A stretch of DNA of 64,000 bases from Alphaproteobacteria bacterium (GTDB lineage Bacteria > Pseudomonadota > Alphaproteobacteria > Micavibrionales > Micavibrionaceae). The first letter of the stretch is position 1. Every line of letters starts with the position of its first letter. The notes beneath the pieces are model-generated. The model did no database searches and was not told the origin of the DNA. It was given only the letters and a program-made list of their open reading frames with translations. The translations under genes and the position numbers were made by a program. The DNA is taken from assembly GCA_030424975.1 (NCBI GenBank), contig JAUHVY010000001.1, positions 121,093 to 185,092 of the forward strand, read 5' to 3'. Of this stretch, positions 30,169-46,360 are shown in pieces.

Positions 30169-30630
30169 ATGACAGTGTCTTACGGAAGTGATGTTGAAAA
30201 CAAGAATACCATGATGTTTACGCAGGAGGCCGTTCCCTTTGATTCGGTAGAGGATGCGTGGTTCTGGTTCATAAATGCCCAGCAAGCCCGCAATGACGGC
30301 GCGCGCACGGTATCAGGTGTTGGGAATGTGAAACGACCGTGTGAACCTGTGGATATCCTGAAGATTCTGGATACGCTCTATCGTAAGAGGCGTCTTGTCC
30401 GCGATCATTTATTGGTTTTGCGCCATTACGGGCGTCGGATGATGCCGCCGGAAAAAAGTCGGGTTAAGGAAAAACGTGCCTATTATATATGGTCAGAGGC
30501 CATGGATCGTTTGGAAGAGGTTATGGAGGCCAAGGGGATCGTCCGCGCCAATAGCTGGGTTCGCCGCTATCAGGATCAGATGCCGCCTGCCCAATCTGAT
30601 TTTTTTAATTATGCGGGAGGGCGTGCCTGA
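30169..30630 (+). CDS. hypothetical protein, first gene of the phage-derived cluster
   Basis: 153 residues, soluble, basic and helical, with an aromatic stretch DAWFWFINAQQARNDGAR and a Trp- and Arg-rich C-terminal part (YYIWSEAMDRLEEVM, NSWVRRYQDQ). I do not recognise the family. It is the first gene behind the LexA-like box and overlaps the next gene by one base (stop/start TGATG). By position it could be a regulator or a packaging/assembly protein, but nothing in the sequence decides. An AAGGA ribosome site precedes the ATG. Confidence 0.65.
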   Translation: MTVSYGSDVENKNTMMFTQEAVPFDSVEDAWFWFINAQQARNDGARTVSGVGNVKRPCEPVDILKILDTLYRKRRLVRDHLLVLRHYGRRMMPPEKSRVKEKRAYYIWSEAMDRLEEVMEAKGIVRANSWVRRYQDQMPPAQSDFFNYAGGRA

Positions 30631-31349
30631 TGAATATGTATGAGCAGCCTCTCGATGTGCATGCATTGTTAAACGGAAGCACCGTCGCAGACAGGTGTGT
30701 TTGGATTGTCTTTAGCGGTCAAACGGATTTACCGTGGCTTCGTATTTTAAAACGCGGTTTTCGGCATTGCTTTGCCCTCATCTATGAAAACGGAAAATGG
30801 ATTAGTGTTGATCCGATGGCGCATTATATGGAGGTCATAACCCATGATGTGCCAAGCGATTTCAATATGCCGACATGGTTGGAGCAACGTGGATGCACAT
30901 TGTTATTGTCCCCGCGCGTAACGCCGAAAATGCGGCCTGCGCCGATTATGTTTTTTTCCTGTGTCGAGGTGTGTAAACGCCTTGCGGGGATACATGATAT
31001 GCGGGTGATTACCCCATGGCAGCTTTATGATTACCTTAACAAACAACAGAATAAAAATGCCGCACAGCCGAGCGGTTCAAAACTTATAGGAGGAAGAATA
31101 TGGGAAGTTTATTTTCATCGCCTAAGGCGTCGTTACCTGCGGTTCAAACGCCGTCGTCAAATGCAACAACGGGTGGACAGGAAACGCAAGGCAGTGGTGT
31201 TGTGCAAAAAACATCCGAGGAAAATGCCGCACAAGAGCGCGAAAGAAATTTGTTATCACGTAAACGTGGTCGTCTGGGCACGATTGAAACAGGTTTCCGC
31301 GGATTTTTGGGGCAAAGTACAAGCAGTGATGCCCGAAAAAGCCTGCTAG
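30630..31349 (+). CDS. phage-cluster protein, possible papain/NlpC-like fold, with overlapping basic tail
   Basis: 239 residues. Residues 1-~140 look like a small folded domain with a His in KRGFRHCFALIYENGKWISV, an Asp in VDPM and a Cys in FFSCVEVCKRLAG. This His...Cys spacing recalls permuted NlpC/papain-like phage proteins, but that is a weak inference. Residues 157-239 are extremely Arg/Lys-rich and are read from the same DNA as the 85-residue gene at 31100, in another frame. That tail looks like a read-through shadow. In the +1 frame a TAG (31087-31089) sits directly before the next gene's ribosome site, so a one-base shift may have removed the normal stop. Confidence 0.55.
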   Translation: MNMYEQPLDVHALLNGSTVADRCVWIVFSGQTDLPWLRILKRGFRHCFALIYENGKWISVDPMAHYMEVITHDVPSDFNMPTWLEQRGCTLLLSPRVTPKMRPAPIMFFSCVEVCKRLAGIHDMRVITPWQLYDYLNKQQNKNAAQPSGSKLIGGRIWEVYFHRLRRRYLRFKRRRQMQQRVDRKRKAVVLCKKHPRKMPHKSAKEICYHVNVVVWARLKQVSADFWGKVQAVMPEKAC

Positions 31350-31357
31350 GGGAGTAG
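31100..31357 (+). CDS. small phage-cluster protein
   Basis: 85 residues: MGSLFSSPKASLPAVQTPSS, then a Gln/Gly/Ser-rich linker, a basic stretch RERERNLLSRKRGRLGTIET, then GFRGFLGQ. A strong ribosome site (AGGAGG, 31089-31094) lies 5 bases before the ATG. Low-complexity proteins with a MG(S/G)LFSSPK start are commonly placed just before portal genes in podoviruses and alphaproteobacterial prophages, but the function is unknown. It overlaps 250 bases of the preceding reading frame. This frame is the better supported of the two. Confidence 0.7.
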   Translation: MGSLFSSPKASLPAVQTPSSNATTGGQETQGSGVVQKTSEENAAQERERNLLSRKRGRLGTIETGFRGFLGQSTSSDARKSLLGE

Positions 31358-31395
31358 GCAGCGCGAAAGCGATTATTAAAGAGAAGGATTTCGAT

Positions 31396-32904
31396 ATGAA
31401 TAAAAGTGATATTGCGCCTGAGCCGTTTATGGCTGAGGCGGCGCTTGATGCTGCGCGCGGTGCTGCCGTTATAAAGCGATATGAGGGCGCAAAAGACAGG
31501 CGTACGCCTTGGCTCAGCCTTTGGGAGAGCTGTTACGACTATGCCTTGCCGCAACATGCGGGGTTTACGTTTGACGCCCCTGTTGCAAAGCGTCAGATGC
31601 AGAACGTGTTTGATGCGACGGCTCTGGATGCTGTTGATCAATTGGCGGCAAGCATGCTGGGGCATTTAACACCGATATGGACGCAATGGTTCGGCCTTAT
31701 TCCGGGGCCGGATGTTAGTGAGGAGGAGGCGCAAAGTTTAGCGCCCGTATTGGAAAAAGCAGCCCGCGTCATGCAATCGCATTTTGATCGTTCCAATTTT
31801 GCGATGGAAATTCACCAATGCTATTTGGACTTGGTTGTCGGCGGTACGGCCTCTCTTGCATTCGAAGAAAGCGCGCCCGGAGATTTCAGTGCGTTTAAAT
31901 TTCAGGCCATTCCCCTAAAGCATATAGTTTTAGAAGAGGGGGCAACAGGGTTCCTTGATGGCGGATATCGTATTCTGGCGCTTACGTTGGATCAAATGAT
32001 GGCGCGCTATTCGCAGGCGGTTTTGCCAAAGGATGTTATTCGTGCGCTTGCCAAAGATCCGCAGGCGCGGATCAATGTTTTGGAGGGCATAACGCAAAAC
32101 GGCTCTGTTTATGATTATGTAGCTGTCTTAAATCACGAACAGGGCACGCCGATAATTTTGCAGGCGGGAACGTTTAATGAAAGCCCGATCATCAGTTTCA
32201 GGTGGTCTAAAACCCCGGGAGAGATTTACGGGCGTTCACCTGTGATGAAGGCTCTTCCTGATATTAAAACCGCCAATAAAGTAGTGGAGTTAATTCTGAA
32301 GAATGCTTCCATTGCGGTGACAGGGATCTGGCAGGCAGATGATGACGGGGTTTTGAACCCCGCGAATATTGAGCTTGTCCCGGGGAGTATTATTCCAAAA
32401 GCCGTAGGCTCAAAGGGGTTGCAGCCATTGGATATGCCTGGACAATTCGATGTATCGCAAATCATGTTGGAGAATTTGCAAGGACGTATTCGCCATGCTT
32501 TGCTCGTTGATCGCTTAGCGCCCGTCGGAACGCGCATGACCGCAACCGAAGTGTTAGAGCGTACATCGGAGATGGCTCTATTGCTTTCCGCAACATATGG
32601 GCGGTTACAATCTGAACTATTATTACCGTTAATCAAGCGTGCCTATGCGATTTTACGCCGCCGTGGAGAAGTGCCGGACCTTATGCTGGACGGGCGCAAT
32701 GTAATGATTGATTTCAGGTCACCTTTGGCGCGCGCGCAAGGGCAAAGTCATGTGCAAAATACATTGCAATGGGTCAATGCGGTTCAATCGCTTGGAGCAG
32801 AAGGGGCGGGGCGCGTTGATGTTCACGCAACTGCGCGTTACTTGCGCGAGGCCATGGCTGTGCCATCTGATCTGATGCGCTCTGATGATGCGATTATTTC
32901 ATAA
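31396..32904 (+). CDS. portal protein (T7-type head-to-tail connector)
   Basis: 502 residues. The N-terminus has the connector-family pattern: IKRYEGAKDRRTPWLSLWES, CYDYALPQ, RQMQNVFDATALDAVDQLAA, SMLGHLTP, W. Later, FRWSKTPGEIYGRSPVMKAL and RMTATEVLERTSEMALLL are also typical of T7 gp8-like portals. Twelve copies would form the ring at the capsid vertex through which DNA enters and leaves. The length is near normal (~500-540). AGAAGG precedes the ATG. The scaffold candidate follows. Confidence 0.9.
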   Translation: MNKSDIAPEPFMAEAALDAARGAAVIKRYEGAKDRRTPWLSLWESCYDYALPQHAGFTFDAPVAKRQMQNVFDATALDAVDQLAASMLGHLTPIWTQWFGLIPGPDVSEEEAQSLAPVLEKAARVMQSHFDRSNFAMEIHQCYLDLVVGGTASLAFEESAPGDFSAFKFQAIPLKHIVLEEGATGFLDGGYRILALTLDQMMARYSQAVLPKDVIRALAKDPQARINVLEGITQNGSVYDYVAVLNHEQGTPIILQAGTFNESPIISFRWSKTPGEIYGRSPVMKALPDIKTANKVVELILKNASIAVTGIWQADDDGVLNPANIELVPGSIIPKAVGSKGLQPLDMPGQFDVSQIMLENLQGRIRHALLVDRLAPVGTRMTATEVLERTSEMALLLSATYGRLQSELLLPLIKRAYAILRRRGEVPDLMLDGRNVMIDFRSPLARAQGQSHVQNTLQWVNAVQSLGAEGAGRVDVHATARYLREAMAVPSDLMRSDDAIIS

Positions 32905-32931
32905 GCTTTTCATTACAAAAGGAGATTTAAG

Positions 32932-33576
32932 ATGAATGAAGAAGAAAATTTGTTGGAAATAGATATTCCGCAAAAGTTTAAAGATGTCAAAACGGGGGCT
33001 CTTGATACGCAAAAGCTGTTGGCATCGTATAAAGAGTTGGAAGGGCATTTATCAAGCAGACCATCTGCGCCGAAGTCACATCTTGATTATTGTATTGATT
33101 GTTCACACGGCATGTTCAATGCAGATGAGGAGGTAAACAAGCGCTTGCATGATAAAGGGTTTACGCCCGAACAAGCGCAAGAGGTGTACGATTTGGCGGC
33201 AGAAAAGCTGATGCCGATGATCCGTGAATTAGCAGTGGAATATCAGGCGGAACGCGAGGTCGAAAAATTGGTCAATCATTTCGGCGGTTCAGAGAAATGG
33301 AAAGAGGTGTCACGTCAATTACTGACATTTGGCCGTCAGAATATGCCCGAAGATGTGCTTGATAATATGGCATCATCATATGAGGGTGTTTTGGCGCTTT
33401 ATCGTATGATGCAGAATAAGGAGCCGAGCCTGCAGCGTCATGCCGCGCCGTCACATGACGGTCCGGATGAGAAAAAGCTGATTTCCATGATGCGTGATCC
33501 GAAATATTGGCGCGAAAAAGACCCATCCTTTGTTGAGAAGGTAACAAAGGGGTTTGAAGGCTTGTATAATAGCTAA
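32932..33576 (+). CDS. capsid assembly/scaffolding protein candidate
   Basis: 214 residues, acidic and mostly helical, with a Glu/Lys-rich central part (YQAEREVEKLVNHFGGSEKW) and the phage head-assembly-like QNMPEDVLDNMASSYEGVLA and KYWREKDPSF. It lies between portal and capsid, the place of T7 gp9. AAGGAG lies 9 bases before the ATG. The call rests on position and composition, and homology to gp9 is plausible. It is followed by a hairpin and a convergent PilZ gene. Confidence 0.7.
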   Translation: MNEEENLLEIDIPQKFKDVKTGALDTQKLLASYKELEGHLSSRPSAPKSHLDYCIDCSHGMFNADEEVNKRLHDKGFTPEQAQEVYDLAAEKLMPMIRELAVEYQAEREVEKLVNHFGGSEKWKEVSRQLLTFGRQNMPEDVLDNMASSYEGVLALYRMMQNKEPSLQRHAAPSHDGPDEKKLISMMRDPKYWREKDPSFVEKVTKGFEGLYNS

Positions 33577-33602
33577 GCCATTGAAAACGCCCTAAAGTAT
33601 TT

Positions 33603-33625
33603 AGCCCCGCAAAATGTGCGGGGCT
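33603..33625. terminator. hairpin between scaffold gene and convergent PilZ gene
   Basis: A 9-bp stem, AGCCCCGCA (33603-33611) with TGCGGGGCT (33617-33625), has a 5-base loop. T-runs are weak on both strands, but its position between convergent stops suggests transcription termination. Confidence 0.55.
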
Positions 33626-33655
33626 GTTATCAATCAATTTAGGAGAGGGGTAATT

Positions 33656-34036
33656 CTAAACCTGAGATTCTGCGAAACGTTGTGCAACGTAGTCATCAAC
33701 GACTTTTTGAAAGCCGGATTGTACGTTTTTGGTCAACGGAAGGAATCGTAGGGCAACTTTATTCGGCACTTTGCGAATAACTTTGGCTTTATGGTCAACT
33801 TCCATGATTTCGTCACGTAATTTGAATTTTACGGTAAAAGTGCATTCCTGACCGATGGCAAACAGGCGTTCATCTGCGGTAATTAGCATACCACCTGAAC
33901 TCCAGTTTTCGACCGGGTGCATTTGTCCGTTAATGATGCTGACGCAACGATCATCAGAGCGACGTGCATGAACGCGTTTTCTTAATGAACTTACATCTTG
34001 GCTTTTCGCTTGATGTGAAACATTCTTACCAAACAT
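33656..34036 (-). CDS. PilZ domain protein
   Basis: 126 residues. The c-di-GMP-binding motifs of PilZ are present: RxxxR in RKRVHARR (Arg21, Arg25) and (D/N)xSxxG as NWSSGG (44-49). A beta-barrel-like remainder follows (FTVKFKLRDEIMEVDHKAKV). PilZ domains sense cyclic di-GMP and act on motility, secretion or polysaccharide systems. It is the only minus-strand gene inside the phage-derived cluster, between scaffold and capsid. It could be a cargo gene or a host gene trapped during decay. Its promoter would lie in the AT-rich 34037-34190 region. Confidence 0.85.
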   Translation of the reverse strand: MFGKNVSHQAKSQDVSSLRKRVHARRSDDRCVSIINGQMHPVENWSSGGMLITADERLFAIGQECTFTVKFKLRDEIMEVDHKAKVIRKVPNKVALRFLPLTKNVQSGFQKVVDDYVAQRFAESQV

Positions 34037-34191
34037 CAGTTTATACCTTGTTTTAGTTTTATTATGACAAAAACCTAATATAAATTTTTGTTCAAATTAA
34101 GGCAATTTTAACAGATTTAGGCTACTGCACACAAAAAAATAAGGTTTTTTGTATTTTTATCTTGCATTTATATGACTTTATTCCTAAAATT

Positions 34192-34235
34192 GTGGTGTAG
34201 GCACCACTCTTGCGACATTTTAGTGCGAGGTGGTG
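34192..34235 (+). ncRNA. candidate RNA switch with two exclusive hairpins
   Basis: GTGGTG (34192-34197), CACCAC (34202-34207) and GTGGTG (34230-34235) lie in one leader. The middle block can pair with either outer block, so two hairpins compete. The second is extended by CTTGCG pairing towards TGCGAG. A terminator follows at 34266 and the capsid gene at 34402. This is the layout of a transcription attenuator. It matches no riboswitch class I know and does not resemble the GEMM c-di-GMP motif. Confidence 0.35.
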
Positions 34236-34265
34236 TAATTTTATTTCAGTTTAGCGAAATTCTCT

Positions 34266-34315
34266 AAGTGGCTTTGACAACATCTGATTTTTCAGGTGCC
34301 GGAGCCGCTTTTTTT
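34266..34315 (+). terminator. two-part terminator upstream of capsid
   Basis: An outer stem AAGTGGCT (34266-34273) with AGCCGCTT (34303-34310) encloses an inner stem CATCTG (34281-34286) with CAGGTG (34293-34298). Seven T follow. It lies before, not after, the capsid gene. Confidence 0.75.
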
Positions 34316-34325
34316 ATGCCTGAAA
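34307..34325 (+). repeat. GC-T7-ATGCCTGAAA element, copy 1
   Basis: The 19 bases GCTTTTTTTATGCCTGAAA are identical to 43427-43445, upstream of the terminase. A shorter copy (T6-AATGCCTGAA) is at 37734-37749, upstream of tail tubular B. Each follows a terminator and opens a tiny MPE reading frame. Confidence 0.7.
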
Positions 34326-34401
34326 CGGCCCTGTTACATCGGTATGCAGGATAACCCGCGCAGGTTTCATTTTCCAATTAACATTAACAAAGAGGTTTAT
34401 A

Positions 34402-35235
34402 ATGTCTACGACAATAGATCAGGCTTTTATTAAGCAATTCGAGCGTGAGGTTCACGAAGCATATCAACGACAAGGGTCAAAGCTTCGTAATACGGTGCGC
34501 ACAATTTCAAATGTGAATGGCTCCAGTGCCGTTTTCCAAAAAGTCGGCAAGGGAACAGCCAGCACGAAATCAACGCATGGTATGGTGCCAGTGATGAACT
34601 TGGATCACACCGCGATTGAGGTCATCTTGCAAGATTATTATGCGGGTGACTGGGTTGATCGTTTAGATGAGCTGAAAACAAATATTGATGAGCGCCAGGT
34701 GATCGCAAATGCAGGGGCGCAAGCTCTGGGCCGTAAAACGGATGAATTGATCATCAATGCCCTTGAAACGGCATCAACGCATACAATTGCAGACGGTAAT
34801 GTCGGTATGACAAAGGATAAAATCCTGAGTGCGTTTGAAACATTCGGTGAAAATGATGTGCCTGATGATGCGCAACGTTTTTGCGTGGTCGGGTGGAAGC
34901 AATGGAGTGATCTGCTTGCGATTGATGAGTTCGTGAATGCCGATTATATCGGTCATGAACAATTGCCGTTTGCCACAATCACGCAGGCGAAGATGTTTCT
35001 GGGTACAGTTTTTATTCCGCATTCAGGTCTGCCGATTGACGGGAATGATGTACGCTCTTGTTTCTATTATCACAAAACCGCCGTCGGTCATGCAGCGGCC
35101 AGTGATGTCCAAACAGATATCTCATGGCATGGCGACCGCGCCGCGCATTTCGTCAATAATATGATGAGCCAAGGCGCCGGTCTGATTGATGAGAGCGGTA
35201 TTGTGGTTATCGGCTGTGATGAAACGCCCGACTAA
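34402..35235 (+). CDS. major capsid protein (podovirus type)
   Basis: 277 residues: a helical N-terminus TIDQAFIKQFEREVHEAY, then SKLRNTVRT, and a mixed alpha/beta body with LDHTAIEVILQDYYAGDWVD, LDELKTNIDERQVIANAGAQ, GRKTDELIINALE and a loop QRFCVVGWKQWSDLL. This is the HK97-fold capsid family found in many podoviruses and prophages. It forms the icosahedral shell. It has its own leader with an attenuator-like element. The 79-residue gene follows. Confidence 0.85.
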   Translation: MSTTIDQAFIKQFEREVHEAYQRQGSKLRNTVRTISNVNGSSAVFQKVGKGTASTKSTHGMVPVMNLDHTAIEVILQDYYAGDWVDRLDELKTNIDERQVIANAGAQALGRKTDELIINALETASTHTIADGNVGMTKDKILSAFETFGENDVPDDAQRFCVVGWKQWSDLLAIDEFVNADYIGHEQLPFATITQAKMFLGTVFIPHSGLPIDGNDVRSCFYYHKTAVGHAAASDVQTDISWHGDRAAHFVNNMMSQGAGLIDESGIVVIGCDETPD

Positions 35236-35273
35236 TTCCCATTAAAATTTAAAGAAAGAAAAGGAGACATATC

Positions 35274-35513
35274 ATGGCTTATTCAGCATCTGATTTAAGT
35301 GTTTTGGCCTATGCCAATAATTTTACGTTATGGCATTTCACAACAACAGACAGCGCAATTACAAGTGGCGGTTATTTTAACAAAGCCGCCGATATGTTGC
35401 GTGTGAATGATTTGATTATTGCGAATATCGATACCGACGGGACCGCGTCTACGGCATTTTATGTTGTGACCGGCAATGACGGCAGCAGCGTCACTATCAC
35501 GGCTTATGCGTAA
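35274..35513 (+). CDS. small beta-rich protein after capsid
   Basis: 79 residues, Thr/Ser/Ala-rich and beta-rich, without charge clusters: LAYANNFTLWHFTTTDSAIT, GGYFNKAADMLRVNDLIIAN, and FYVVTGNDGSSVTITAYA. AAGGAG precedes the ATG by 7 bases. Proteins of this type follow capsid genes in several podovirus-like prophages, and a decoration or head-completion role is possible. I do not recognise a named family. A hairpin follows at 35557. Confidence 0.65.
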   Translation: MAYSASDLSVLAYANNFTLWHFTTTDSAITSGGYFNKAADMLRVNDLIIANIDTDGTASTAFYVVTGNDGSSVTITAYA

Positions 35514-35556
35514 ATGCGTCATAAGTAACCAAACGTGACCTTTCCTAAAAAACGCG

Positions 35557-35581
35557 GGCGGTAATATATTAACCGCCTGTT
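35557..35581 (+). terminator. hairpin after the capsid transcription unit
   Basis: GGCGGT (35557-35562) pairs with ACCGCC (35572-35577) around an AT-rich loop, followed by TGTTT. The T-run is short. Confidence 0.5.
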
Positions 35582-35669
35582 TCAGACGTAAAAGCGTTGA
35601 GCTTTACTCCTCTTAGAAACCACAGCTCCGCTTTGGTGAGCCGCATTAGGAACAGGTATCGATATGGCG

Positions 35670-35702
35670 CAGCCCCGATTGTTTAAAACGCTTTCGGGGC
35701 TG
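35670..35702 (+). terminator. hairpin in the leader of tail tubular protein A
   Basis: A perfect 9-bp stem, CAGCCCCGA (35670-35678) with TCGGGGCTG (35694-35702), has a 15-base loop. It lies inside what would be an N-terminal extension of the next reading frame. This supports a start at 35745 rather than 35664. It could be an RNA processing or regulatory structure, as no T-run follows. Confidence 0.4.
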
Positions 35703-35744
35703 TCTGCCTTACAACGTATCATCAGGATTTTCAGGAGAAAAATT

Positions 35745-36314
35745 ATGGCTTTATCAGATATCGGCCTTTGTGCGCGTGCCCTTATAAAAATCGGCGCGGC
35801 GCCAATCACAAGTTTTGAAGACGGAAGCGCAGAAAGCGAAATTGCAGGCGCATTATTTGGGCAAATACGTGATGCTTTGCTTTCGTCTTATGCATGGAGC
35901 TTTGCTAGCGGGCAGGTTGTTTTAAACAGATTAGAAGGCGCGCCGTTAGCGGATTACACATATGCGTATCAGTTACCGAATGATTTCCTGCGTGCCCTTA
36001 GCGCGGGGCAGGGCTCACGCGGTAGGGGATTGAATTTCAGAATTGCGGGTAATCAACTGCATACAAATGCATCCGAAGTCATCCTGAGTTATATCTATCG
36101 CCCCGAAGAAGAAGTGTTCCCTCCATATTTTGATCAGGCGTTAATTGCACGGCTGGCGGCGGAGTTTACGATTCCCGTGACGGAGAATACATCGCGTGCA
36201 GAAAGCATGATGGCATTGGCCGAGCAAGAGTTTAAAAATGCACGACAAATTGACGCACAGCAAGATACGCCAAATAAAATTGAAGATTTCACGCTAATAA
36301 ATGCGCGTGATTAG
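35745..36314 (+). CDS. tail tubular protein A (T7 gp11-like)
   Basis: 189 residues from the ATG at 35745, which has AGGAG 7 bases upstream and gives the family start MALSDIGLCARALIKIGAAP. Further motifs are EIAGALFGQIRDALLSSYAW, YAYQLPNDFLRAL, and YIYRPEEEVFPPYFDQALIA, all typical of the gatekeeper protein under the portal. An in-frame ATG at 35664 is rejected because a hairpin lies in between. It joins the portal to the tail nozzle. Confidence 0.85.
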   Translation: MALSDIGLCARALIKIGAAPITSFEDGSAESEIAGALFGQIRDALLSSYAWSFASGQVVLNRLEGAPLADYTYAYQLPNDFLRALSAGQGSRGRGLNFRIAGNQLHTNASEVILSYIYRPEEEVFPPYFDQALIARLAAEFTIPVTENTSRAESMMALAEQEFKNARQIDAQQDTPNKIEDFTLINARD

Positions 36315-36397
36315 TCGCTTTTTTTCTTGGTTTTATTAAAACCCGTGTGATAACTTTATTGAAATAAAAAAATAAATAATACGCACAGGGTGGTTAT

Positions 36398-37390
36398 ATG
36401 GTGGATTCAGCAAAGGACAGTAATGGTGTGTCAGGTGATTTTCCTGATATGTCGGGTGATTTTGATGGCGGAAAAGAGGTTTTGCGCCAATCGCGTCATT
36501 TCACGATTGAGCGTGTCAATGATAAGCAAACACTTGAACAGGAGTGGGAGCCGTTATTGGTCGAGATTTTTCCCGATGAAGGTGACCGAGAGCCGATTGA
36601 GCTTTTGAATGAACGTTTGGAAAACGGCGAGAATTTCTTTTTAATGCGTGATGAAACAGGGCGCGCCGTTGGTATGGAGCTATCGCAAATTATGCTTGAT
36701 AGCGATGAGCCTGATGCGAAGTATAAAGCCATGTATGTGCCGTGGACAGGCGTTGTTGAGGAATGCCGAAACAACGGTATCGGGTCACAAATGAACCGTC
36801 AGATTTCTGAATATATGCGCGAAAATTATGGCACAACGCATACACTGATTGATATTGAAGACCCTGATAGATTGCATGATTCAGGATACGCACCTGAGGA
36901 ATTAGATGAGGCCATCGGCTTTGCAGAGCGCCGTATTAATTTCTGGCGTCGTGAGGGGTTTGTTGTCGTTGATGATGAGAGCAAGCAATCAGGTGATAAG
37001 CTTGAATATGTGCGACCTGCGTCCGATGATGAACAAAATATTCAGGGGTATGACCATTTAACCGTGCGTCTTGAAAATGACGCATTGGAGGCCGAAGTAT
37101 TAAGCGCGGACGGGATGGAGATTGATAAGGACTTTGTCCGTGAATGTTATCTTGATATGACCCGTATTCAGTATGGCAATCATAGTGAAGATGAGCTTCG
37201 TGAAATGTTCCCGGCGGTAAATCAGTATTTGAATGATATTGATGCAGTCCAGGAGCCGACATTGAAGCTCCGTAGTAGTGCCATTACACCAAAGCGCACA
37301 CCGGATGCGGATATTGTTATGACGATGAAGTCCGATGCGCAAATACCTGTTGCTTCGTATGATACGGAAGAAGGGTATGATTGTGATTAA
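36398..37390 (+). CDS. GNAT-type N-acetyltransferase in the phage cluster
   Basis: 330 residues. An acidic N-terminus precedes a GNAT-like domain with FFLMRDETGRAVGMELSQIM and the acetyl-CoA loop EECRNNGIGSQMNRQISEYM (Arg124-Gly129). The pattern R-x-x-G-x-G is intact. The C-terminal ~100 residues are a separate acidic region (VTMKSDAQIP near the end). The target is unknown. It is not part of a T7-like module, so with the following small gene it looks like an inserted cargo pair. AGGGTGG precedes the ATG. Confidence 0.7.
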   Translation: MVDSAKDSNGVSGDFPDMSGDFDGGKEVLRQSRHFTIERVNDKQTLEQEWEPLLVEIFPDEGDREPIELLNERLENGENFFLMRDETGRAVGMELSQIMLDSDEPDAKYKAMYVPWTGVVEECRNNGIGSQMNRQISEYMRENYGTTHTLIDIEDPDRLHDSGYAPEELDEAIGFAERRINFWRREGFVVVDDESKQSGDKLEYVRPASDDEQNIQGYDHLTVRLENDALEAEVLSADGMEIDKDFVRECYLDMTRIQYGNHSEDELREMFPAVNQYLNDIDAVQEPTLKLRSSAITPKRTPDADIVMTMKSDAQIPVASYDTEEGYDCD

Positions 37391-37463
37391 TCATATTTGA
37401 CGTATGGTGGTTTTATGCCTTATAACTTAAATTATAAGTAATTTTTTGGGAAGGTGAATGAAT

Positions 37464-37643
37464 ATGGGTCTAGATAATCAAAAAAGTATTTCAAAAGAGT
37501 GGGATCCGCAAGCTGAGGACAGCTTAGGTGCGGATGCATCAGTTTCTTTTGATCGTGGTGTTGCAGCAGAAGTGGAAACAAAGTCAGCACCTGTACATCC
37601 GATCGCAGAAGAAGAGCATGACGGTTTCGGCCTGGGTGTTTAA
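37464..37643 (+). CDS. small acidic hypothetical protein
   Basis: 59 residues from the ATG at 37464 (GGAAGG 9 bases upstream). An ATG two codons earlier sits too close to the ribosome site. It is acidic, probably disordered, and ends in EEEHDGFGLGV. No family is recognised. It follows the acetyltransferase gene by ~70 bases and is closed by a strong terminator, so the two may form one unit. Confidence 0.5.
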   Translation: MGLDNQKSISKEWDPQAEDSLGADASVSFDRGVAAEVETKSAPVHPIAEEEHDGFGLGV

Positions 37644-37668
37644 TACCGTCACATAAATGTTTTTATAA

Positions 37669-39719: not shown

Positions 39720-39741
39720 GCCAAAATGAAAGGATAATGAA

Positions 39742-40212
39742 ATGGGAAGTTTAGTTCCGGTACTGGCGAGTACTCTACTAACGCAAGGTGTGGCCTTTGC
39801 CGCGCAAGAGGGGCAGCGCCGCCAAGGTGAAAAGCAACTAAAGCAAGAGCAAGCCTTGCGAGAGCGGCAGAACGCACAAAGTGCCGCGCTTGAAAAAGAA
39901 AGACTTGCACTTGATACAAAAAATACAGAGGCGGAGCGTAAAAGCGCGCTGAAACGTGCGGTATCGCGTCAACGCGCGCAATTCGGTGCGCAAGGGGTCG
40001 GTGCATCGGGGGGCTCCTCTCAGGCGGTGTTGCTTGGCTTTTTTGATGAATCAGAAGATGAGCGCGAAAAGCGTGAGGCTATGGATAATATACGAAGCCG
40101 TGCCATTGATCAGGGGCTAAGCCAGCAAAGCGCGATAAATGTATTGCAGCGCACGCAACTAGCGGAGAAAAATCGCCTGCGTAGCTTAAGCACTATTACT
40201 GACCTTGTATAA
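39742..40212 (+). CDS. internal virion protein candidate (gp14-like by position)
   Basis: 156 residues. A short hydrophobic N-terminus (LVPVLASTLLTQGVAFAA) precedes a long Gln/Glu/Arg-rich coiled coil (EKQLKQEQALRERQNAQSAA) with a central Gly/Ser hinge (GAQGVGASGGSSQAV). Size, composition and place between the nozzle and tail fibre fit T7 gp14-type internal proteins. No large gp15/gp16-like partners are present. AAAGGA precedes the ATG. Confidence 0.6.
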   Translation: MGSLVPVLASTLLTQGVAFAAQEGQRRQGEKQLKQEQALRERQNAQSAALEKERLALDTKNTEAERKSALKRAVSRQRAQFGAQGVGASGGSSQAVLLGFFDESEDEREKREAMDNIRSRAIDQGLSQQSAINVLQRTQLAEKNRLRSLSTITDLV

Positions 40213-40230
40213 GAATACGGAGAAAAGCAA

Positions 40231-42252
40231 ATGACCGAACATATAAAAATACCCGATATCTCGCCGATTGTGCGTTATGTCGCCAATGGTTCGCAAACCG
40301 ATTATGACTTCCCGTTTCCGATTTTTGCGAGTGAAGATTTGATCGTACAGCTTAATGGGGCAACACAAGTCAGCGGGTTTGATATTATTGATGCGGGTGT
40401 AACACATGGCGGGCAGGTACAATTTGATTCTGCGCCGGCTAACGGCATTATTATTACAATAAAGCGGGAGTTACCCATCGAGCGCATAAGCGATTATTTG
40501 GAAGGGGGCGATTTTAGCGCGGCCTCTATCAACTCGGAGCTTGATTACATGATAGCCGCCTTGCAACAGGTGAAGCGCGAAAATGATGTGATGCTGCGTT
40601 ATGATGATAGTGAAACGCCGGGGGAAACTGTTCTTCCTGCGCGCAATTTACGTGCGCATAAGGCATTGGGTTTTGATGGTGACGGTAACCCGATTGCGGT
40701 TTCACTCGATGGTGCAATGGCATCACTCGATTTTACAGCGGTCGGTACGGGCGCAAATACGCGCTCGGCGCATGATAAGTTCACAGATATCGTATCGGTA
40801 AAGGATTTCGGGGCGGTGGGTGATGGCATTACTGATGATACAATCGCCATTCAAAATGCATTAGGGGCGGCCGACGCCGTTTATTTGCCCGAAGGAGAAT
40901 ATTTGATCAGTGCGACAATACAAATGCGCGCCCGCAAAAGTTTGTACGGGGTTGGCGCGGCATCTGTGTTGAAGGCCAATAGTGCGGTGTTCAATGTGAT
41001 TGAAGTCGTTGAGGATTATGTGCGCCTTTCCGATTTCCGTATTGAGGGCGGGAATATCGGCATAAAACTGTACGGTTTATTGCGCCCTGTTGTACAATCA
41101 TCGATTGTTGATGTGACGATTGTTACACCTCAAGTCGGAGTGCAGTTAGACGGGTATAATGATACGAATTATCCGTGTTATTGGAATAATTTTACTCGTG
41201 TTTTGGTCGAGCAACCAGCAGTGCATGGCTTTCACCTTACAAAAAGCGGTGCCGGGGATACGCCCAATGCCAATAAATTTTATGCATGCCGTGCTTATTC
41301 ATTGGGGGCGGATATTTCAGGCGCCGGATTTTATGTCGAGCACGGGCGCTTCAATAATACTTTTATTGATTGTGAGGCCAACGTCAAGGGCACGGCGCAG
41401 GGGTGTTTCATAATCGGCGCAAATTCAGATAAGACCTTGCTGATTAATCCGTATGCAGAGAGTAATAACCTGGTGCCGAATGTGAAGCTGGAAGCAGGGT
41501 CTATTGAAACTTCGATTATGAATTTGTTATCGGTAAGTGATGGCGCCGCAATTTGGGATTTATCAGGCGGCGAATACACGGCCTATAATGCGGGGTATCC
41601 GTATAAAAACCGTTTGCAGAAAACCACTGTGACGGATTTGAATACAACTTTGCAACGCTATGACACAGAATTTATCGATAGTAGCGGCAGCGTGACCCTA
41701 GATTTGTCGCATTCCGTGCATTTGGTTTCATCCTATGGCGGTGCACTCGACATCGTTTTACCAAATGCGGTTGATGCCGCAGGGGCAATGATGGTTATTA
41801 AGAAAACCGACAGCTCGGCCAATGTGATTACGATTAAGGAAGAGGACGGCGCAGGAGCAGACGGCAAAGATTTCTTTCTTGGCGCGGAAAATGACTATGT
41901 GATGATGGTTTCAAACGGGGCAGAATGGTTTGTTATTGCCTCAAATCGATCAAGCGGAAATACACGTTATTTCGACGGCAGTGGTACATACGATATTGAT
42001 ATGGCAGTTGATACATATCTACTCTCAGGCTTTAGCGGAGCAATGACGGCGCGCCTTCCGCCTGCGAATGCTGCGGAGAGTATCGGTCGCACCGTTACGA
42101 TCAAAAAAACGGATGTGTCATCAAACGTTATTACCGTGACAGAGCAGGGTGCGACAGGCCCCGATGGCTATGCGCAACCGTTAAGCAGCCAGTATGATGC
42201 AATTACGGTGGTGTCAGATGGCGGGCAATGGTGGATTGTTGGTAAATTTTAA
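40231..42252 (+). CDS. tail fibre/tailspike protein
   Basis: 673 residues. The N-terminal part (about 1-130) resembles T7 gp17-type adaptors: VRYVANGSQTDYDFPFPIF, LIVQLNGATQVSGFDI, LPIERISDYLEGGDF. From 187 a pectate-lyase-like beta-helix begins: VSVKDFGAVGDGITDDTIAI, LPEGEYLISATIQM. The last 198 residues are two related ~95-residue modules (476-570, 579-673) with MVIKKTDSSANVITI / VTIKKTDVSSNVITV and EWFVIA / QWWIVG. The protein would bind and perhaps cut a surface polysaccharide of the target cell. A terminator follows. Confidence 0.82.
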   Translation: MTEHIKIPDISPIVRYVANGSQTDYDFPFPIFASEDLIVQLNGATQVSGFDIIDAGVTHGGQVQFDSAPANGIIITIKRELPIERISDYLEGGDFSAASINSELDYMIAALQQVKRENDVMLRYDDSETPGETVLPARNLRAHKALGFDGDGNPIAVSLDGAMASLDFTAVGTGANTRSAHDKFTDIVSVKDFGAVGDGITDDTIAIQNALGAADAVYLPEGEYLISATIQMRARKSLYGVGAASVLKANSAVFNVIEVVEDYVRLSDFRIEGGNIGIKLYGLLRPVVQSSIVDVTIVTPQVGVQLDGYNDTNYPCYWNNFTRVLVEQPAVHGFHLTKSGAGDTPNANKFYACRAYSLGADISGAGFYVEHGRFNNTFIDCEANVKGTAQGCFIIGANSDKTLLINPYAESNNLVPNVKLEAGSIETSIMNLLSVSDGAAIWDLSGGEYTAYNAGYPYKNRLQKTTVTDLNTTLQRYDTEFIDSSGSVTLDLSHSVHLVSSYGGALDIVLPNAVDAAGAMMVIKKTDSSANVITIKEEDGAGADGKDFFLGAENDYVMMVSNGAEWFVIASNRSSGNTRYFDGSGTYDIDMAVDTYLLSGFSGAMTARLPPANAAESIGRTVTIKKTDVSSNVITVTEQGATGPDGYAQPLSSQYDAITVVSDGGQWWIVGKF

Positions 42253-42301
42253 AAACGGCGTTGCTACGCTTGATATTTAAACGATTACAATATGTTTTCT
42301 G

Positions 42302-42327
42302 AAGCCGCCTTTCGGGCGGTTTTTTTA
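42302..42327 (+). terminator. terminator after the tail fibre gene
   Basis: CCGCC (42305-42309) pairs with GGCGG (42315-42319) around a TTTCG loop, followed by seven T. Confidence 0.75.
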
Positions 42328-42347
42328 TTGAAGAAAGGATGGCATGA

Positions 42348-42665
42348 ATGGCCGTAATTGAACAAAAGATGCGCACGCAAATCGCTTCTTTTTTACCGTC
42401 TGCCCTGCGTACGGCTATGGATTCGTACAAGGCATTTTCCGTTGCCAATGCATATGAAGGTGCAAAAGAATTTAAAACGCATCATGATGCATGCAAAGTA
42501 GCAATCGCCCATATTGATTTTTTGATTAAGTTGGCACAATGGGCGGATTTACCGGACCCCGCGATAGAAGATGAGGTGCAACATTCTATGCTTTCACAAC
42601 TTATTGAAAATGCCCGCTGCGAATTATCGGGTTACGACGGGCAGTCAGATGAAAACTTGGAATGA
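42348..42665 (+). CDS. hypothetical protein, small-terminase candidate by position
   Basis: 105 residues, soluble and helical: MRTQIASFLPSALRTAMDSY, YEGAKEFKTHHDACKVAIAH, FLIKLAQWADLPDPAIEDEV. No family is recognised. It stands between tail fibre and large terminase, where T7 carries the small terminase (gp18, 89 residues), so that role is a positional guess. The mini-frame ATGGCATGA overlaps its start. Confidence 0.5.
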   Translation: MAVIEQKMRTQIASFLPSALRTAMDSYKAFSVANAYEGAKEFKTHHDACKVAIAHIDFLIKLAQWADLPDPAIEDEVQHSMLSQLIENARCELSGYDGQSDENLE

Positions 42666-42683
42666 TATGAAAAATAATATAGG

Positions 42684-43379
42684 ATGCCGCGCATAGAAAT
42701 ATTGGGTGAGTTGAGCTGTGGGATGAGTAAGCGTTTCAAAGATATGGATTATAGCCAGATTGATAAAACAAGTCTGACAATGCCTGTAATGGTTTTAAGC
42801 GGCTTGATTGCCGTAAGCACGGCATATCACTTTATCAAAGAGCAAAGAGAAGATGTGTCCGATGTTCTGTCTGATTTGCCCGTGAATGAGATGTTTTGCC
42901 GTGTTCCTGATCTTCCGGAAGGGAATTTCCTGAATGATGATCCGTTTGCCTATTTGATGATGGAAAAGGAACCTTCTTTTGAACATTTTTGGGAAGGTGA
43001 TGAAAACCTGAAGATCGTCAATTTCGAATTTGACTATAATCGCACGCTGACGAATAAAAATATCGAATTCTTTACCTCTATCCCGCAGGATATTGTAGAC
43101 GACCCGAATGTGACATTCGTTTTAAGTGGCCATGCAACAGATGATATGCGCGGTATCTTTGGTCGAGGCGTTCCGATTACGGACGATGTTGAGGAGCAAT
43201 ATAATAACCACTTGCGGAATAATTTTAAAATCGCGAGCGGGCGTTTGGATTTTATTAAATCGAAATTGGTCGAGGCGGGTATTTCAGAAGACCGTATTAC
43301 CGTTAATAATTTGAATACGCGTTACAATAAACGCGCGGTTGATTTGGAGGTATGCCTTGCGGGGCATGACCACGAATAG
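42684..43379 (+). CDS. OmpA-like domain protein in the phage cluster
   Basis: 231 residues. A short cytoplasmic part precedes a membrane segment (~32-48, MPVMVLSGLIAVSTAYHFI) and a C-terminal OmpA/MotB-like domain: IVNFEFDYNRTLTNKNIEFF, VTFVLSGHATDD, and NNFKIASGRLDFIKSKLVEA. The Arg-rich end YNKRAVDLEV follows. Such domains bind peptidoglycan. An in-frame ATG at 42723 is an alternative start. It could serve in lysis or wall attachment (a spanin-like job), or be host-derived cargo. This family is not usual in phage clusters. Confidence 0.65.
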   Translation: MPRIEILGELSCGMSKRFKDMDYSQIDKTSLTMPVMVLSGLIAVSTAYHFIKEQREDVSDVLSDLPVNEMFCRVPDLPEGNFLNDDPFAYLMMEKEPSFEHFWEGDENLKIVNFEFDYNRTLTNKNIEFFTSIPQDIVDDPNVTFVLSGHATDDMRGIFGRGVPITDDVEEQYNNHLRNNFKIASGRLDFIKSKLVEAGISEDRITVNNLNTRYNKRAVDLEVCLAGHDHE

Positions 43380-43408
43380 TTTTTAGTTTGGAACTTTAAT
43401 TTTTGTAG

Positions 43409-43435
43409 AGCTTCGCAATTTGCGAAGCTTTTTTT
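43409..43435 (+). terminator. terminator upstream of the large terminase
   Basis: AGCTTCGC (43409-43416) pairs with GCGAAGCT (43422-43429), followed by seven T. It closes the OmpA-like unit. Confidence 0.75.
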
Positions 43436-43445
43436 ATGCCTGAAA
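43427..43445 (+). repeat. GC-T7-ATGCCTGAAA element, copy 3
   Basis: 19 bases identical to 34307-34325. The ATG (43436) opens a 6-codon frame (MPENRP, then TAA), followed by the AAGGGG ribosome site of the terminase gene. Confidence 0.7.
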
Positions 43446-43467
43446 ACAGGCCGTAAGGGGATTTTAT

Positions 43468-44952
43468 ATGGCGCGCTTTGATATAACCGAGGCAGATTTT
43501 AAATTATTTGTCGTGCTGTGGAATCAACGGCAGAATTTGCAAACACCTGACGTGCATTTGGATATGGCGCAATGGTTGGAGCATGCATATAAAACACAGG
43601 AAAGGCGTCTGTTGTTGATGGCGTTTCGGAGCGCGGGTAAATCGACGTTAGTCGGGCTTTTTGCGGCATGGTTGCTTTATCGTGATGCAAATTTGCGCAT
43701 TATGGTTTTGGCCGCAGATCAGGTGCTTGCCGCAAAGATGGTGCGAAATGTGAAACGCATCATTGAACGTCATCCCTTAACGCAAAAAATGAAGCCAAAA
43801 CGCGCAGATCAATGGGCATCTGACAGGTTTACAGTGCGCCGCATGCTGGAGCTTCGTGACCCGTCAATGATTGCCAAGGGGGTCTGCGCCAATATCACAG
43901 GTAGCCGCGCCGATATCGTAATTTGTGATGATGTTGAGGTTCCTAATACATGCGATAGCGTGGAAAAGCGTGAGGATCTGCGTAACCGTTTGGCAGAAAT
44001 GATTTATGTCCTAACGGCGTGCGGTACACAGCTCTATGTCGGAACGCCGCATCATTTTTACTCTATCTATGCTCGTGAGGGGCGCCCGGAAATCGGTGAA
44101 GACGGACCTTTTCTGGATGGGTTTAAGCGCTTAGAGTTGCCATTGCTGGATGATCATGGGAATTGTCGGTGGTCTGAACGATATAGTGATTATGATATTG
44201 CGCAAATGCGCCGCGCCGCAGGGCCGAATAAATTCGAAAGCCAGATGATGCTGCGCCCGGTGAATATTGCGCAGGGGCGTCTAAACCCTGACTTGCTGCG
44301 GCATTATGATGATGATCTTGATTATGTGCGAGAGATCAAAACCCTGTTCATAGGTGATAAACGCATGGTTGGTGCGTCGTGCTGGTGGGATCCTGCTTTT
44401 GGCAATCATCGTGGGGATAACAGTGTTTGCGCAGTGGTTTTTACCGATGAGAGTGGTGATTATTACTTGCATCACCTTGAATATATCACAGTGGATGAGC
44501 GGTGCGATGATGATGAGGCAACGCAGCAAGCACGCATTGTGGCCAATATCGCCAAGCAATTTTATCTGCCGCGTATAACTGTGGAGATTAACGGTATTGG
44601 GCGTTTTCTGCCTAATATCTTGCGTAATCAGTTGAGCCTTGCTCATGCCCCGACGCGGGTTGATGAGGTATCAAGCCACAGGCCAAAGGTCGCGAGGATT
44701 ATGGAAGGGTTTGACGCCCTGATGGCGGCGCGGCGGCTTTATGTTCATCGCAATGTCCTAAAGACCCCGTTTTTAATGGAAATGCGTGAATGGCGCCCCG
44801 ATGGCGGCAAAGGGCATGATGATGGGTTGGATGCGGTTGCAGGAGCCTTATCGCAGCAGCCTGACCGCTTGCAGCGCGTTTATGGTAGGGGCGCACATCA
44901 ATGGGGGGGCGGCGTTAAACACATGCGCGCAAAAAGTGATTTTGACGTTTAA
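43468..44952 (+). CDS. terminase large subunit
   Basis: 494 residues. The ATPase part has Walker A RSAGKST (54-60) and Walker B IVICDDVE (150-157), then TQLYVGTPHHFYSIY. The nuclease part has acidic residues in CWWDPAFGNHRGDNSV and GHDDGLDAVAGAL. This T7 gp19-like motor cuts and packages DNA into the prohead. All catalytic motifs are intact, so the gene looks functional. AAGGGG lies 8 bases before the ATG. Confidence 0.92.
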   Translation: MARFDITEADFKLFVVLWNQRQNLQTPDVHLDMAQWLEHAYKTQERRLLLMAFRSAGKSTLVGLFAAWLLYRDANLRIMVLAADQVLAAKMVRNVKRIIERHPLTQKMKPKRADQWASDRFTVRRMLELRDPSMIAKGVCANITGSRADIVICDDVEVPNTCDSVEKREDLRNRLAEMIYVLTACGTQLYVGTPHHFYSIYAREGRPEIGEDGPFLDGFKRLELPLLDDHGNCRWSERYSDYDIAQMRRAAGPNKFESQMMLRPVNIAQGRLNPDLLRHYDDDLDYVREIKTLFIGDKRMVGASCWWDPAFGNHRGDNSVCAVVFTDESGDYYLHHLEYITVDERCDDDEATQQARIVANIAKQFYLPRITVEINGIGRFLPNILRNQLSLAHAPTRVDEVSSHRPKVARIMEGFDALMAARRLYVHRNVLKTPFLMEMREWRPDGGKGHDDGLDAVAGALSQQPDRLQRVYGRGAHQWGGGVKHMRAKSDFDV

Positions 44953-44978
44953 AACTATAAATAATAGGGACAAAGACA

Positions 44979-45302
44979 ATGACAGAGATTTCTACAGATT
45001 TACTCTGGTGGATTACGGTGGTTGATTTACCGGCGCTGAGCGGTCTTTTCTGGCTTATCTGGCGTGTACGGACAGAGGCAGAAGATGCCGTGGATGATAT
45101 GCATGTCACGCTGGATTTACGCTGTGATCAACTGCGTGAGGCACTTCATGGGTTCAAGTTGGAAGTCGCAAAAAATTATGCATCACAGCGCGATTTACGT
45201 GCACTAGAAACGCGGCTGGTGGAGCATTTGCTGCGTATTGAGGCAAAACTGGACAGCACAGCCCTCAAAACCGAAAGCCTGAGCGCTGGCAGAGATTATT
45301 AA
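44979..45302 (+). CDS. small membrane protein with coiled coil
   Basis: 107 residues. One membrane helix (~8-27, LLWWITVVDLPALSGLFWLI) is followed by a charged coiled-coil region to the C-terminus (LRCDQLREALHGFKLEVAKN, LRALETRLVEHLLRIEAKL). It lies between the terminase and the lysin genes, so it probably belongs to the lysis module (Rz-like or holin accessory). No family is assigned. Confidence 0.6.
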   Translation: MTEISTDLLWWITVVDLPALSGLFWLIWRVRTEAEDAVDDMHVTLDLRCDQLREALHGFKLEVAKNYASQRDLRALETRLVEHLLRIEAKLDSTALKTESLSAGRDY

Positions 45303-45325
45303 TCATAAACAAACGGAGAAAAGAA

Positions 45326-45832
45326 ATGGATAAACGACCACAATTGGTCGCGATTTGTGATGGAAAGGTAACAGATACATTGCAAAATCGTGAGCAGACA
45401 ATGCAGGATTTCTACAATGATATGGCGATTGATGTTTTAGCACGCACAATGTGGGGTGAGGCCCGCGGGCAAGGAACGGACGGGTTAAGCGCTGTGGCTT
45501 GTGTTGTTTTAAACCGCGTGAAGGTCGCGCATGAACACGGAACATATTGGTGGGGGAATAATATAATTCAGGTGTGCCAGAAGCCTTATCAGTTTTCGTG
45601 TTGGAACCGATCTGATACGAATTTTAAAAAGCTTCAATATGTAGGGGCGGATAATGTGTACTTTGCATCCTGTCTGCGTATTGCGCGGCGTGCCGTTATC
45701 GGTGTTCTGGACGATAACACAAATGGCGCAACACATTATCATGCCGATTATGTATCGCCATATTGGGCACGTGGTAAACAGCCATGTGCTGAAATAGGTG
45801 CGCATTTGTTTTACAAACTGGTGGAGGGGTAG
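45326..45832 (+). CDS. cell wall hydrolase (SleB/lysozyme-like endolysin)
   Basis: 168 residues. The hydrolase_2 pattern is LARTMWGEARGQGTDGLSAV with the probable catalytic Glu45, then ACVVLNRV, QVCQKPYQFSCWN and GATHYHADYVSPYWARGK. The family cleaves peptidoglycan, and in phage and gene-transfer-agent clusters it frees particles. No signal peptide is seen, so release would depend on the adjoining holin, whose ATG follows the stop directly. GGAG lies 9 bases upstream of the ATG. Confidence 0.87.
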   Translation: MDKRPQLVAICDGKVTDTLQNREQTMQDFYNDMAIDVLARTMWGEARGQGTDGLSAVACVVLNRVKVAHEHGTYWWGNNIIQVCQKPYQFSCWNRSDTNFKKLQYVGADNVYFASCLRIARRAVIGVLDDNTNGATHYHADYVSPYWARGKQPCAEIGAHLFYKLVEG

Positions 45833-46360
45833 ATGATAGGGGGCATATTATCCAATATCGGCTTGCCTGTTCTGGTGGCCATCCTCGGTGCGGCGCTTGG
45901 CGTGATTGATAATCCGGTGGCGAAAACTGCGTCAGAGGCGTTATCAAAAGTTGATGAAGCGCTCAAGAGTGGTCAGATTAGTGATGAACAGGTCGCCGAA
46001 GCCAATCGCCACAGTGAAAAAATGGCGCAGATGGAAATGGAAAACTATCAAACCACATTGTCGGAAATTAATGCGTCGCTGCGTGCGGAGGTGGCTTCGG
46101 ATGATAAATATGTACGGCGGATGCGCCCGACATTCGGATATTTGATGGCGCTGACATGGGCGGCGCAAATGTTTGGTATAGCGTATGTTATTATGTTTGA
46201 TACTGATAAAGCGGGTGTGGTCATGGCGGCAATGGGTAATTTAAGCGCGATTTGGGCGGTGGGGCTATCTGTGCTTGGGATATATGTCTATAAACGCAGT
46301 GATGAGAAGAATTTATTGCCCTCTAAAGAAGTGATTTTCTGGAATCCGGTAAATAAGTAA
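45833..46360 (+). CDS. holin of the three-helix gene-transfer-agent type
   Basis: 175 residues. A first hydrophobic segment (~5-24), then a soluble amphipathic middle (ISDEQVAEANRHSEKMAQME, ASDDKYVRRMRPTFGYLMA) and two further membrane helices (~102-120, ~130-157). This matches the GTA_holin_3TM pattern, in which an RxxRP element enters the second helix. It would form pores that let the preceding hydrolase reach the wall. It is the last phage-like gene and starts at the base after the hydrolase stop. Confidence 0.82.
   Translation: MIGGILSNIGLPVLVAILGAALGVIDNPVAKTASEALSKVDEALKSGQISDEQVAEANRHSEKMAQMEMENYQTTLSEINASLRAEVASDDKYVRRMRPTFGYLMALTWAAQMFGIAYVIMFDTDKAGVVMAAMGNLSAIWAVGLSVLGIYVYKRSDEKNLLPSKEVIFWNPVNK

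Follow-up and report, generated by a model that had tools for sequence, protein, structure and literature searches.

A putative SOS-controlled gene transfer agent of podoviral origin in Micavibrio-type bacteria and Rhodospirillales

Gene transfer agents (GTAs) of the RcGTA type (Rhodogtaviriformidae; R. capsulatus, C. crescentus) are encoded by a vertically inherited alphaproteobacterial virion cluster with dispersed genes, and their particles are siphovirus-like with an HK97-type capsid. We analysed a 64-kb stretch of the chromosome of a Micavibrio-type bacterium (hereafter the window, within which all coordinates are given) that carries, at positions 30169-46360, a cluster of virion, packaging and lysis genes. 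Like the RcGTA type, it has a holin of the GTA-named three-helix family PF11351; unlike it, it has a T7-type portal, a capsid protein of family PF19821 and tail tubes A and B. The best reading of the comparative data is that it represents a new SOS-controlled, podovirus-derived GTA lineage: we consider it likely that an ancient podophage, a relative of Pelagibacter phage Hodr, left its genes for virion, packaging and lysis fixed in the chromosome, and that these have since passed down by mainly vertical descent, not without losses, among Micavibrio-type bacteria and in many Rhodospirillales. That the cluster encodes a domesticated podovirus-like particle is well supported by gene content and conservation, and such particles probably carry bacterial DNA between cells.

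Among the other described systems, BaGTA (Bartogtaviriformidae) is also alphaproteobacterial with a main cluster of ~14 kb; according to the partial descriptions available it differs in having an HK97 capsid instead of the PF19821 capsid found here, and lies near a virus-derived origin and secretion-system genes in Bartonella. FpGTA of Faecalibacterium prausnitzii is called podovirus-like and GTA-like by its authors and, in the accessible text of the report, shares with our cluster a portal, scaffold, capsid, large terminase (TerL), holin and endolysin (PMC12946183). It is set apart by its Gram-positive gut host and its two operons (PMC12946183), and an independent origin is presumed. A literature search, which did not cover subscription papers and preprints, returned no earlier description of the cluster.

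The Pelagibacter podophages HTVC010P and HTVC034P have the same order of portal, scaffold, capsid and tail tube genes, and the nearest isolated phage, Hodr, has a capsid 49.5% and a portal 33.3% identical to those of the window. Other isolated-phage matches, among those listed, reach ~31% for TerL and ~34% at best for tail tube B. In contrast to the cluster these are isolated phages with genomes of 34-35 kb, TerL precedes the portal in HTVC010P, and the window's sequence of X1, the first gene of the cluster, has no match in the phage collection searched. Hence recent phage relatives, which a preliminary description of the locus had named as evidence that would speak against domestication, are missing among the phages searched. 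When capsids were placed in a tree, those from genomes grouped as a single clade, outside of which the four isolated phages included fall. None of 80 contigs fetched from the 505 relatives in a viral collection exceeds 25.6 kb, and since 42 of the 44 with room upstream of the portal carry the helix-turn-helix (HTH) regulator gene, X1 or its neighbour X2, these contigs look like the same chromosomal element. A plasmid search with the Azospirillum capsid gave no match, and portal matches on plasmids (19 records) reach at most 33.0%. A 5.1-kb unverified 'bacteriophage' scaffold from human faeces (L339, MT838907.1) has its place beside G254, within the clade of capsids from genomes (support 0.994), and for that reason is probably a piece of the chromosomal element and not a phage.

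The relation to RcGTA was examined through its marker TIGR02217, which is absent from the own genome of the window and above cut-off in 2 of 110 relatives (G041 and G057), the Caulobacter control being positive. Among 387 alphaproteobacterial genomes sampled, the portal match is strong in 50 (at least 500 bits, with pieces summed for G152, G264 and G409; G201 lies just under at 493.7 bits), the marker is present in 55, and no genome has both (Fisher p 2.6e-4, a value that ignores relatedness). When the threshold is relaxed, which gives 110 portal genomes, three of them (G193, G252, G326) combine the portal with the marker, and G193 also has the HTH, X1 and X2 genes at a contig edge. Outside the sample the same combination occurs in two genomes of the Micavibrio family, G041 (C92:2387) and G057 (C46:35771), where the marker may stem from an RcGTA-like prophage, a second GTA or contamination. 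The two GTA types thus seem largely to exclude each other; the exclusion is weaker than first thought, and the best reading does not rest on it. Membership in the RcGTA group was rejected, with this one marker of homology to RcGTA structural genes missing from the own genome; judged by distribution and gene content, the element is not RcGTA. In Table 3 of Kogay 2019, the part of that study available, no RcGTA-like clusters are given for Azospirillales (13 genomes), Rhodospirillales (24) and several other orders.

Distribution, inheritance and selection

Portal genes were found in 79 of 115 genomes, the own one counted (65 of 79 among good-quality genomes), as one match in 75 and as two pieces in four. 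Within the same family 59 of 72 relatives carry the portal (rows counted by hand), at identities of mostly 55-69% and with mostly open frames. We mapped 24 relatives chosen for long contigs. The set is complete in 14 of them (portal, scaffold, capsid, tail tubes A and B, TerL and holin), and 13 of these 14 have it between pyrE/nadK and folD as in the window; the synteny comparison proposed in the preliminary description therefore came out in favour of a conserved interval. The other ten are cut at contig or fetch ends, have portal and scaffold alone at the locus (G017, G024, G038) or an internal deletion (G079). TerL was present in 28 of 28 close genomes and in 23 of 24 further ones, in single copy in each of the latter bar a weak second match in one.

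The element extends well beyond Micavibrio. A scan of named genomes yielded at least 420 relatives, the best 80 of which (53-68% identity) include members of Micavibrio, Azospirillum, Magnetospirillum, Paramagnetospirillum, Telmatospirillum, Terasakiella and Defluviicoccus, and most non-Micavibrio relatives keep the same gene order. In 16 non-Micavibrio loci, hand-picked as contiguous, X2, portal, scaffold, capsid, tail tubes A and B and TerL are present in all 16, the HTH gene in 15, X1 and the SleB hydrolase in eight each and the holin in five. Magnetospirillum, Azospirillum and Micavibrionales each have conserved neighbours of their own, and lysK, encoding class I lysyl-tRNA synthetase, lies on the regulator's side in ten non-Micavibrio loci, out of 69 loci with the regulator, at a median distance of 106 bp; the ten represent 9 distinct genomes, L112 and L266 being one contig as judged by length. 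A rearranged gene order was seen in L253/L272, L260 and L263. L253 (G168) and L272 (G412) come from a genus with 0.9 Mb genomes, and their TerL matches fall in two pieces ~3-4 kb apart.

A tree of six cluster proteins (2209 columns) was compared with an rpoB tree for 26 genomes, taken from 30 of which three had no rpoB match and one a split one; for four of the 26 TerL is missing from the data, owing to a short match or to the end of the retrieved sequence. The trees have 12 of 23 splits in common, as against at most 2 in 1000 label shuffles, and the Mantel distance correlation is 0.85 (null maximum 0.37, 999 permutations), and within the two groups it is 0.88 and 0.75, where the null maxima are 0.77 and 0.58 respectively. 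These comparisons indicate vertical inheritance with the host, with losses and seven conflicting supported nodes. In the closest Micavibrionales pair (G033/G062) the ratio of nonsynonymous to synonymous change (dN/dS) is 0.016 for the portal, 0.008 for the capsid and 0.032 for tail tube B, and of the 91 values obtained (13 pairs, 10 genes) 79 do not exceed 0.2. Among the 12 higher values, X1 has 0.34 in two pairs, X2 reaches 0.27 and the scaffold 0.38, and the capsid has 0.24 once; two of them, portal 0.69 and scaffold 0.30, come from L206/L207, a pair with almost no synonymous change. Hence the head and tail genes covered are under purifying selection, and the dN/dS analysis which had been suggested for portal, capsid and terminase gave low values for the first two as for the other genes covered.

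Furthermore, the cluster is divided in a number of genomes. With G275 and G277 set aside as distant and G508 as equal to G134 by coordinates, 28 of 31 genomes were counted, and in seven of them the module of HTH gene, X1, X2, portal and scaffold stands apart from the capsid-to-TerL module: the distance, measured on one contig, is 1.24 Mb in G428, ~0.31 Mb in Azospirillum TSH64, 0.24 Mb in G364, 0.15 Mb in G256 and 0.13 Mb in G296, and in G464 and G497 the modules lie on different contigs. A virus that travels in one piece should hardly remain whole with its modules so separated, and in this respect the cluster does not look like a mobile phage. The window's own copy is contiguous; its GC content (47.0%, against 45.4% in the flanks) and a codon usage that correlates at 0.94 with that of 12 host genes let it appear long resident. 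The general features of GTAs that we tested are all present, namely virion and packaging genes without genes for replication, integration or excision (in the window), vertical inheritance, purifying selection and dispersal. In the distant genome G275 a single portal (2951125) and capsid and tail tube B genes (capsid 1345115) lie at separate places of contig C1 with a very weak TerL match, and this genome is perhaps a further divergent lineage.

The RogA-like regulator and the LexA box

In relatives, the gene divergent from X1 encodes a RogA-like protein of 210-216 amino acids with an HTH and a LexA-like S24 domain; a G-x-S-M motif and a downstream lysine are both kept in 58 of 76 full-length copies, as judged by a simple pattern. 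In architecture and size it matches RogA, the repressor of the Caulobacter GTA (~213 amino acids, HTH and LexA-like S24 domain in the accessible text of PMC9632790), to which it is likened by description only, and this may be a further point in common with the RcGTA type. The RogA-like gene is found in 49 of the 50 strong-portal genomes, in 46 of them divergent and within 9 kb of the portal. It also occurs in cluster-free genomes, near lysK in 15 of 20 alphaproteobacterial loci (L303-L322) and without X1 or X2 there. This HTH tally used 113 of 125 genomes, 12 partial or weak matches being omitted, among them the RcGTA-positive G195 and the portal-positive G346.

The copy in the window has no S24 domain. 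Alignment revealed that the N-terminal HTH of the regulator is fused to orotate phosphoribosyltransferase, PyrE (29048-29983, minus strand), so that a phage-type repressor head sits on an enzyme of pyrimidine biosynthesis. The fused form is present in the own genome and in 8 of the 24 mapped relatives, other Micavibrionales having HTH-S24 and pyrE as separate genes, and no second copy of the HTH regulator was found in the own genome at E 1e-20. The earlier statement that no stand-alone repressor was found therefore needs correcting, in that a regulator does exist as part of the fusion.

A k-mer search revealed a LexA/SOS box, GAAC-N7-GAAC (30091-30105, plus strand), between the regulator and X1; it is the only exact match in the window and, read on the opposite strand, corresponds to GTTCN7GTTC, the published consensus of the LexA box in Caulobacter. 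As about one chance match is expected per 64 kb, the weight of the box rests on its conserved place. The exact box occurs in 63 of 122 distinct regulator-X1 intergenic regions, compared with a null mean of 0.86 (maximum 3) and a mean of 2.0 (maximum 6) in control windows, and in 23 of 26 regions taken as Micavibrio-type. A TTGAC element, possibly a -35 element (30059-30063, plus strand), starts 32 bp before the box, without an assignable -10 element. Of 40 forward boxes, 37 have a TTGAC upstream, and in 18 of these the spacing is 31-32 bp. A search for inverted-repeat operators gave weak excesses only. Before the capsid module of six split genomes a plausible box was seen in two, one further match at a start codon being discounted. 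The conserved LexA box links the GTA-like cluster to the SOS response.

Alternative explanations and a possible mechanism

Several observations weigh against the reading of the cluster as a GTA. Random packaging cannot be argued from size, as T7-type capsids hold more DNA than the 16 kb of the cluster and the phage relatives have 34-35 kb. The portal is missing from 13 of the 72 family relatives, some of them incomplete assemblies, and presence is patchy within some families, for which loss or horizontal gain are both possible. Damaged portals were found in G045 and G069 (one stop each), G020 (apparently frameshifted), G094 (interrupted) and G152 (L333-L334; interrupted by ~17 kb of inserted DNA), besides the internal deletion in G079 and a missing portal in G284; broken frames in sister strains, which had been named beforehand as a sign against domestication, are thus few yet present. 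Supported nodes (>0.95) in conflict number four in the cluster tree only and three in the rpoB tree only, some of them shallow. The 13 dN/dS pairs overlap and include viral-collection contigs, and TerL, SleB, the holin and the small protein p29007 gave no value. Among the matches listed, four other genomes (G464, G501, G134, G364) have integrase-family genes, which may include Xer recombinases, at 17-27 kb from one of the modules. Around half of the intergenic regions have no exact LexA box, none was found at the X1 promoter of the six split genomes checked, and an SOS box with an S24 repressor is equally typical of prophages.

The strongest rival holds that the domesticated podovirus-like particle has a job other than gene transfer, for instance as a PBSX-like particle that is filled with DNA and kills, or as a lysis device which the SOS response sets off in competition or predation. 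The conservation data would fit this equally well, fibre and lysis genes are kept in many genomes, and among the relatives are some that bear the name of Micavibrio, a predatory genus. We nevertheless regard it as rather unlikely, since the packaging set is kept, with TerL in every close genome and its motif residues invariant in the 13 sequences aligned, portal and scaffold are mostly under constraint, and the cluster is also found in Azospirillum and Magnetospirillum, which are not known to be predators.

Less probable still is an ordinary reduced prophage family that re-enters the same chromosomal site beside the RogA-like gene. Patchy presence, the SOS box with a CI-like repressor, decayed copies and the conflicting nodes would all suit a prophage. 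Against this, the trees are largely congruent and the flanks conserved within clades, the modules lie apart in a quarter of the genomes counted, and no close free phage or plasmid relative appeared in the collections searched. Moreover, of the four integrase-family genes in the own genome, the nearest on the contig of the cluster is ~770 kb off, and neither an integrase nor replication genes were found in the window, as the preliminary description had stated; an integrase just outside, which would have spoken for a prophage, is therefore absent. With no integrase nearby, no close phage relatives and no signs of mobility, an ordinary prophage was not retained as the leading explanation. The proposal that the locus is a domesticated podovirus-like particle or GTA is supported by synteny, dN/dS, integrase distance and phage distance, and the checks suggested at the outset mostly favour domestication over a reduced prophage. 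A dead remnant kept by chance, for which the broken or partial copies G020, G079, G094, G284 and G152 might speak, is hardly credible given the low dN/dS values, the mostly open frames at 55-69% identity within the family and the conserved promoter box.

For the podovirus-derived GTA we propose the following course. DNA damage would free the X1 promoter of LexA and of the RogA-like repressor, upon which a minority of cells would produce short-tailed particles and TerL would fill them with whatever chromosomal DNA is available. The holin, SleB and perhaps X2 would then open the cell wall and release the particles, from which sister cells or kin could receive DNA usable for recombination repair. 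In the clade of the window, the HTH-PyrE fusion could tie the switch to pyrimidine or phosphoribosyl pyrophosphate (PRPP) status. A tentative and rather doubtful extension is that the common ancestor of Rhodospirillales and Micavibrio held a podovirus at the rogA-like/lysK locus that turned into the SOS-controlled GTA, that RogA began as the CI-type repressor of this element, stayed on in lineages that lost the virion genes and was there recruited for the unrelated GTA of the Caulobacter type, and that the HTH-PyrE rebuild couples packaging to pyrimidine metabolism.

If the cluster is a GTA, Rhodospirillales and Azospirillales have a GTA of their own that was built from another type of virus, and a single bacterial class has then seen domestication into a GTA more than once. 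According to the accessible text of PMC3899980, Azospirillum lipoferum and Azospirillum sp. B510 form particles with random ~10 kb host DNA, which were judged to be GTAs and ascribed to other, R. capsulatus-like loci. The cluster described here is a candidate gene set for these ~10 kb particles.

Gene content of the window

The cluster starts with the two conserved genes X1 and X2 and the small X3, which were not named in the preliminary description; the three (30169-31357) precede the portal and are conserved together with the cluster. X1 (30169-30630, plus strand), the first gene of the operon, encodes a helical protein for which a useful match to a known fold was lacking. X2 (30630-31349, plus strand) is a possible papain-fold, permuted NlpC/P60-like cell-wall hydrolase with invariant H46, C47 and C111. 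The fold match is weak: Foldseek gave no significant match, and the VIA-align scores, Z 7.1 for TseH (113 residues) and Z 5.3 for 3kw0, both below Z 8, are suggestive only. X3 (31100-31357, plus strand) overlaps the 3' part of the X2 open reading frame (ORF) directly 5' of the portal.

The block that follows (31396-46360) has its virion, packaging and lysis genes on the plus strand in T7 order, as proposed from the ORFs at the outset and borne out by Pfam and PHROGs matches. It comprises the portal or head-tail connector (31396-32904; PF12236, E 2.4e-132), scaffold (32932-33576; PF05396, E 7.8e-14), major capsid protein (34402-35235; PF19821, E 8.7e-81), tail tubular proteins A (35736-36314; phrog_394, E 1.1e-47) and B (37752-39719; phrog_376, E 3.5e-145), a candidate gp14-size internal virion protein (39742-40212) and the tail fibre or spike (40231-42252; PF12708, PF03906, phrog_1640). 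The gp14-size protein agrees with its suggested counterpart in size and position, while its family match is weak (phrog_418, E 0.43), and the T7-tail-like N-terminus of the fibre scores under the cut-off of its family (PF03906, E 0.00094). In the ORF list of the window no large gp15/gp16-type ORF lies between these two genes, in agreement with the preliminary description.

The 3' part of the block begins with a small protein (42348-42665, plus strand; phrog_31793), a candidate small terminase by position only, which adjoins TerL in many relatives. TerL itself (43468-44952, plus strand; phrog_38, E 2.8e-82, and PF17289) has intact ATPase and nuclease motif residues, G57 K58 S59, D308, D451 and D455 being invariant in 13 aligned sequences. 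A second small protein (44979-45302, plus strand; phrog_29007), by position a candidate for the lysis module, the SleB-type cell wall hydrolase or endolysin (45326-45832, plus strand; PF07486, E 1.9e-19) and the three-helix GTA-type holin (45833-46360, plus strand; PF11351 GTA_holin_3TM, E 7.4e-11) complete it. A scan of the window ORFs with Pfam, PHROGs and an integrase-family search, made for the window only, relatives having been mapped for their core genes, found no replication, integration or excision genes, so that the own polymerase, integrase and other replication genes of an active podovirus or prophage are lacking here; no tRNA genes were found in the 64 kb.

Three non-virion genes are embedded in the block. 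A GNAT-domain protein (36398-37390, plus strand; PF00583) and an OmpA-like ORF (42684-43379, plus strand), the latter named by eye without a family match, were each found in none of the 24 mapped relatives. A PilZ-domain protein (33656-34036, minus strand; PF07238) is conserved inside the cluster in Micavibrionales (20 of the 24 mapped relatives), and its gene sits antisense at the junction of scaffold and capsid, the same point at which the clusters of other genomes break in two.

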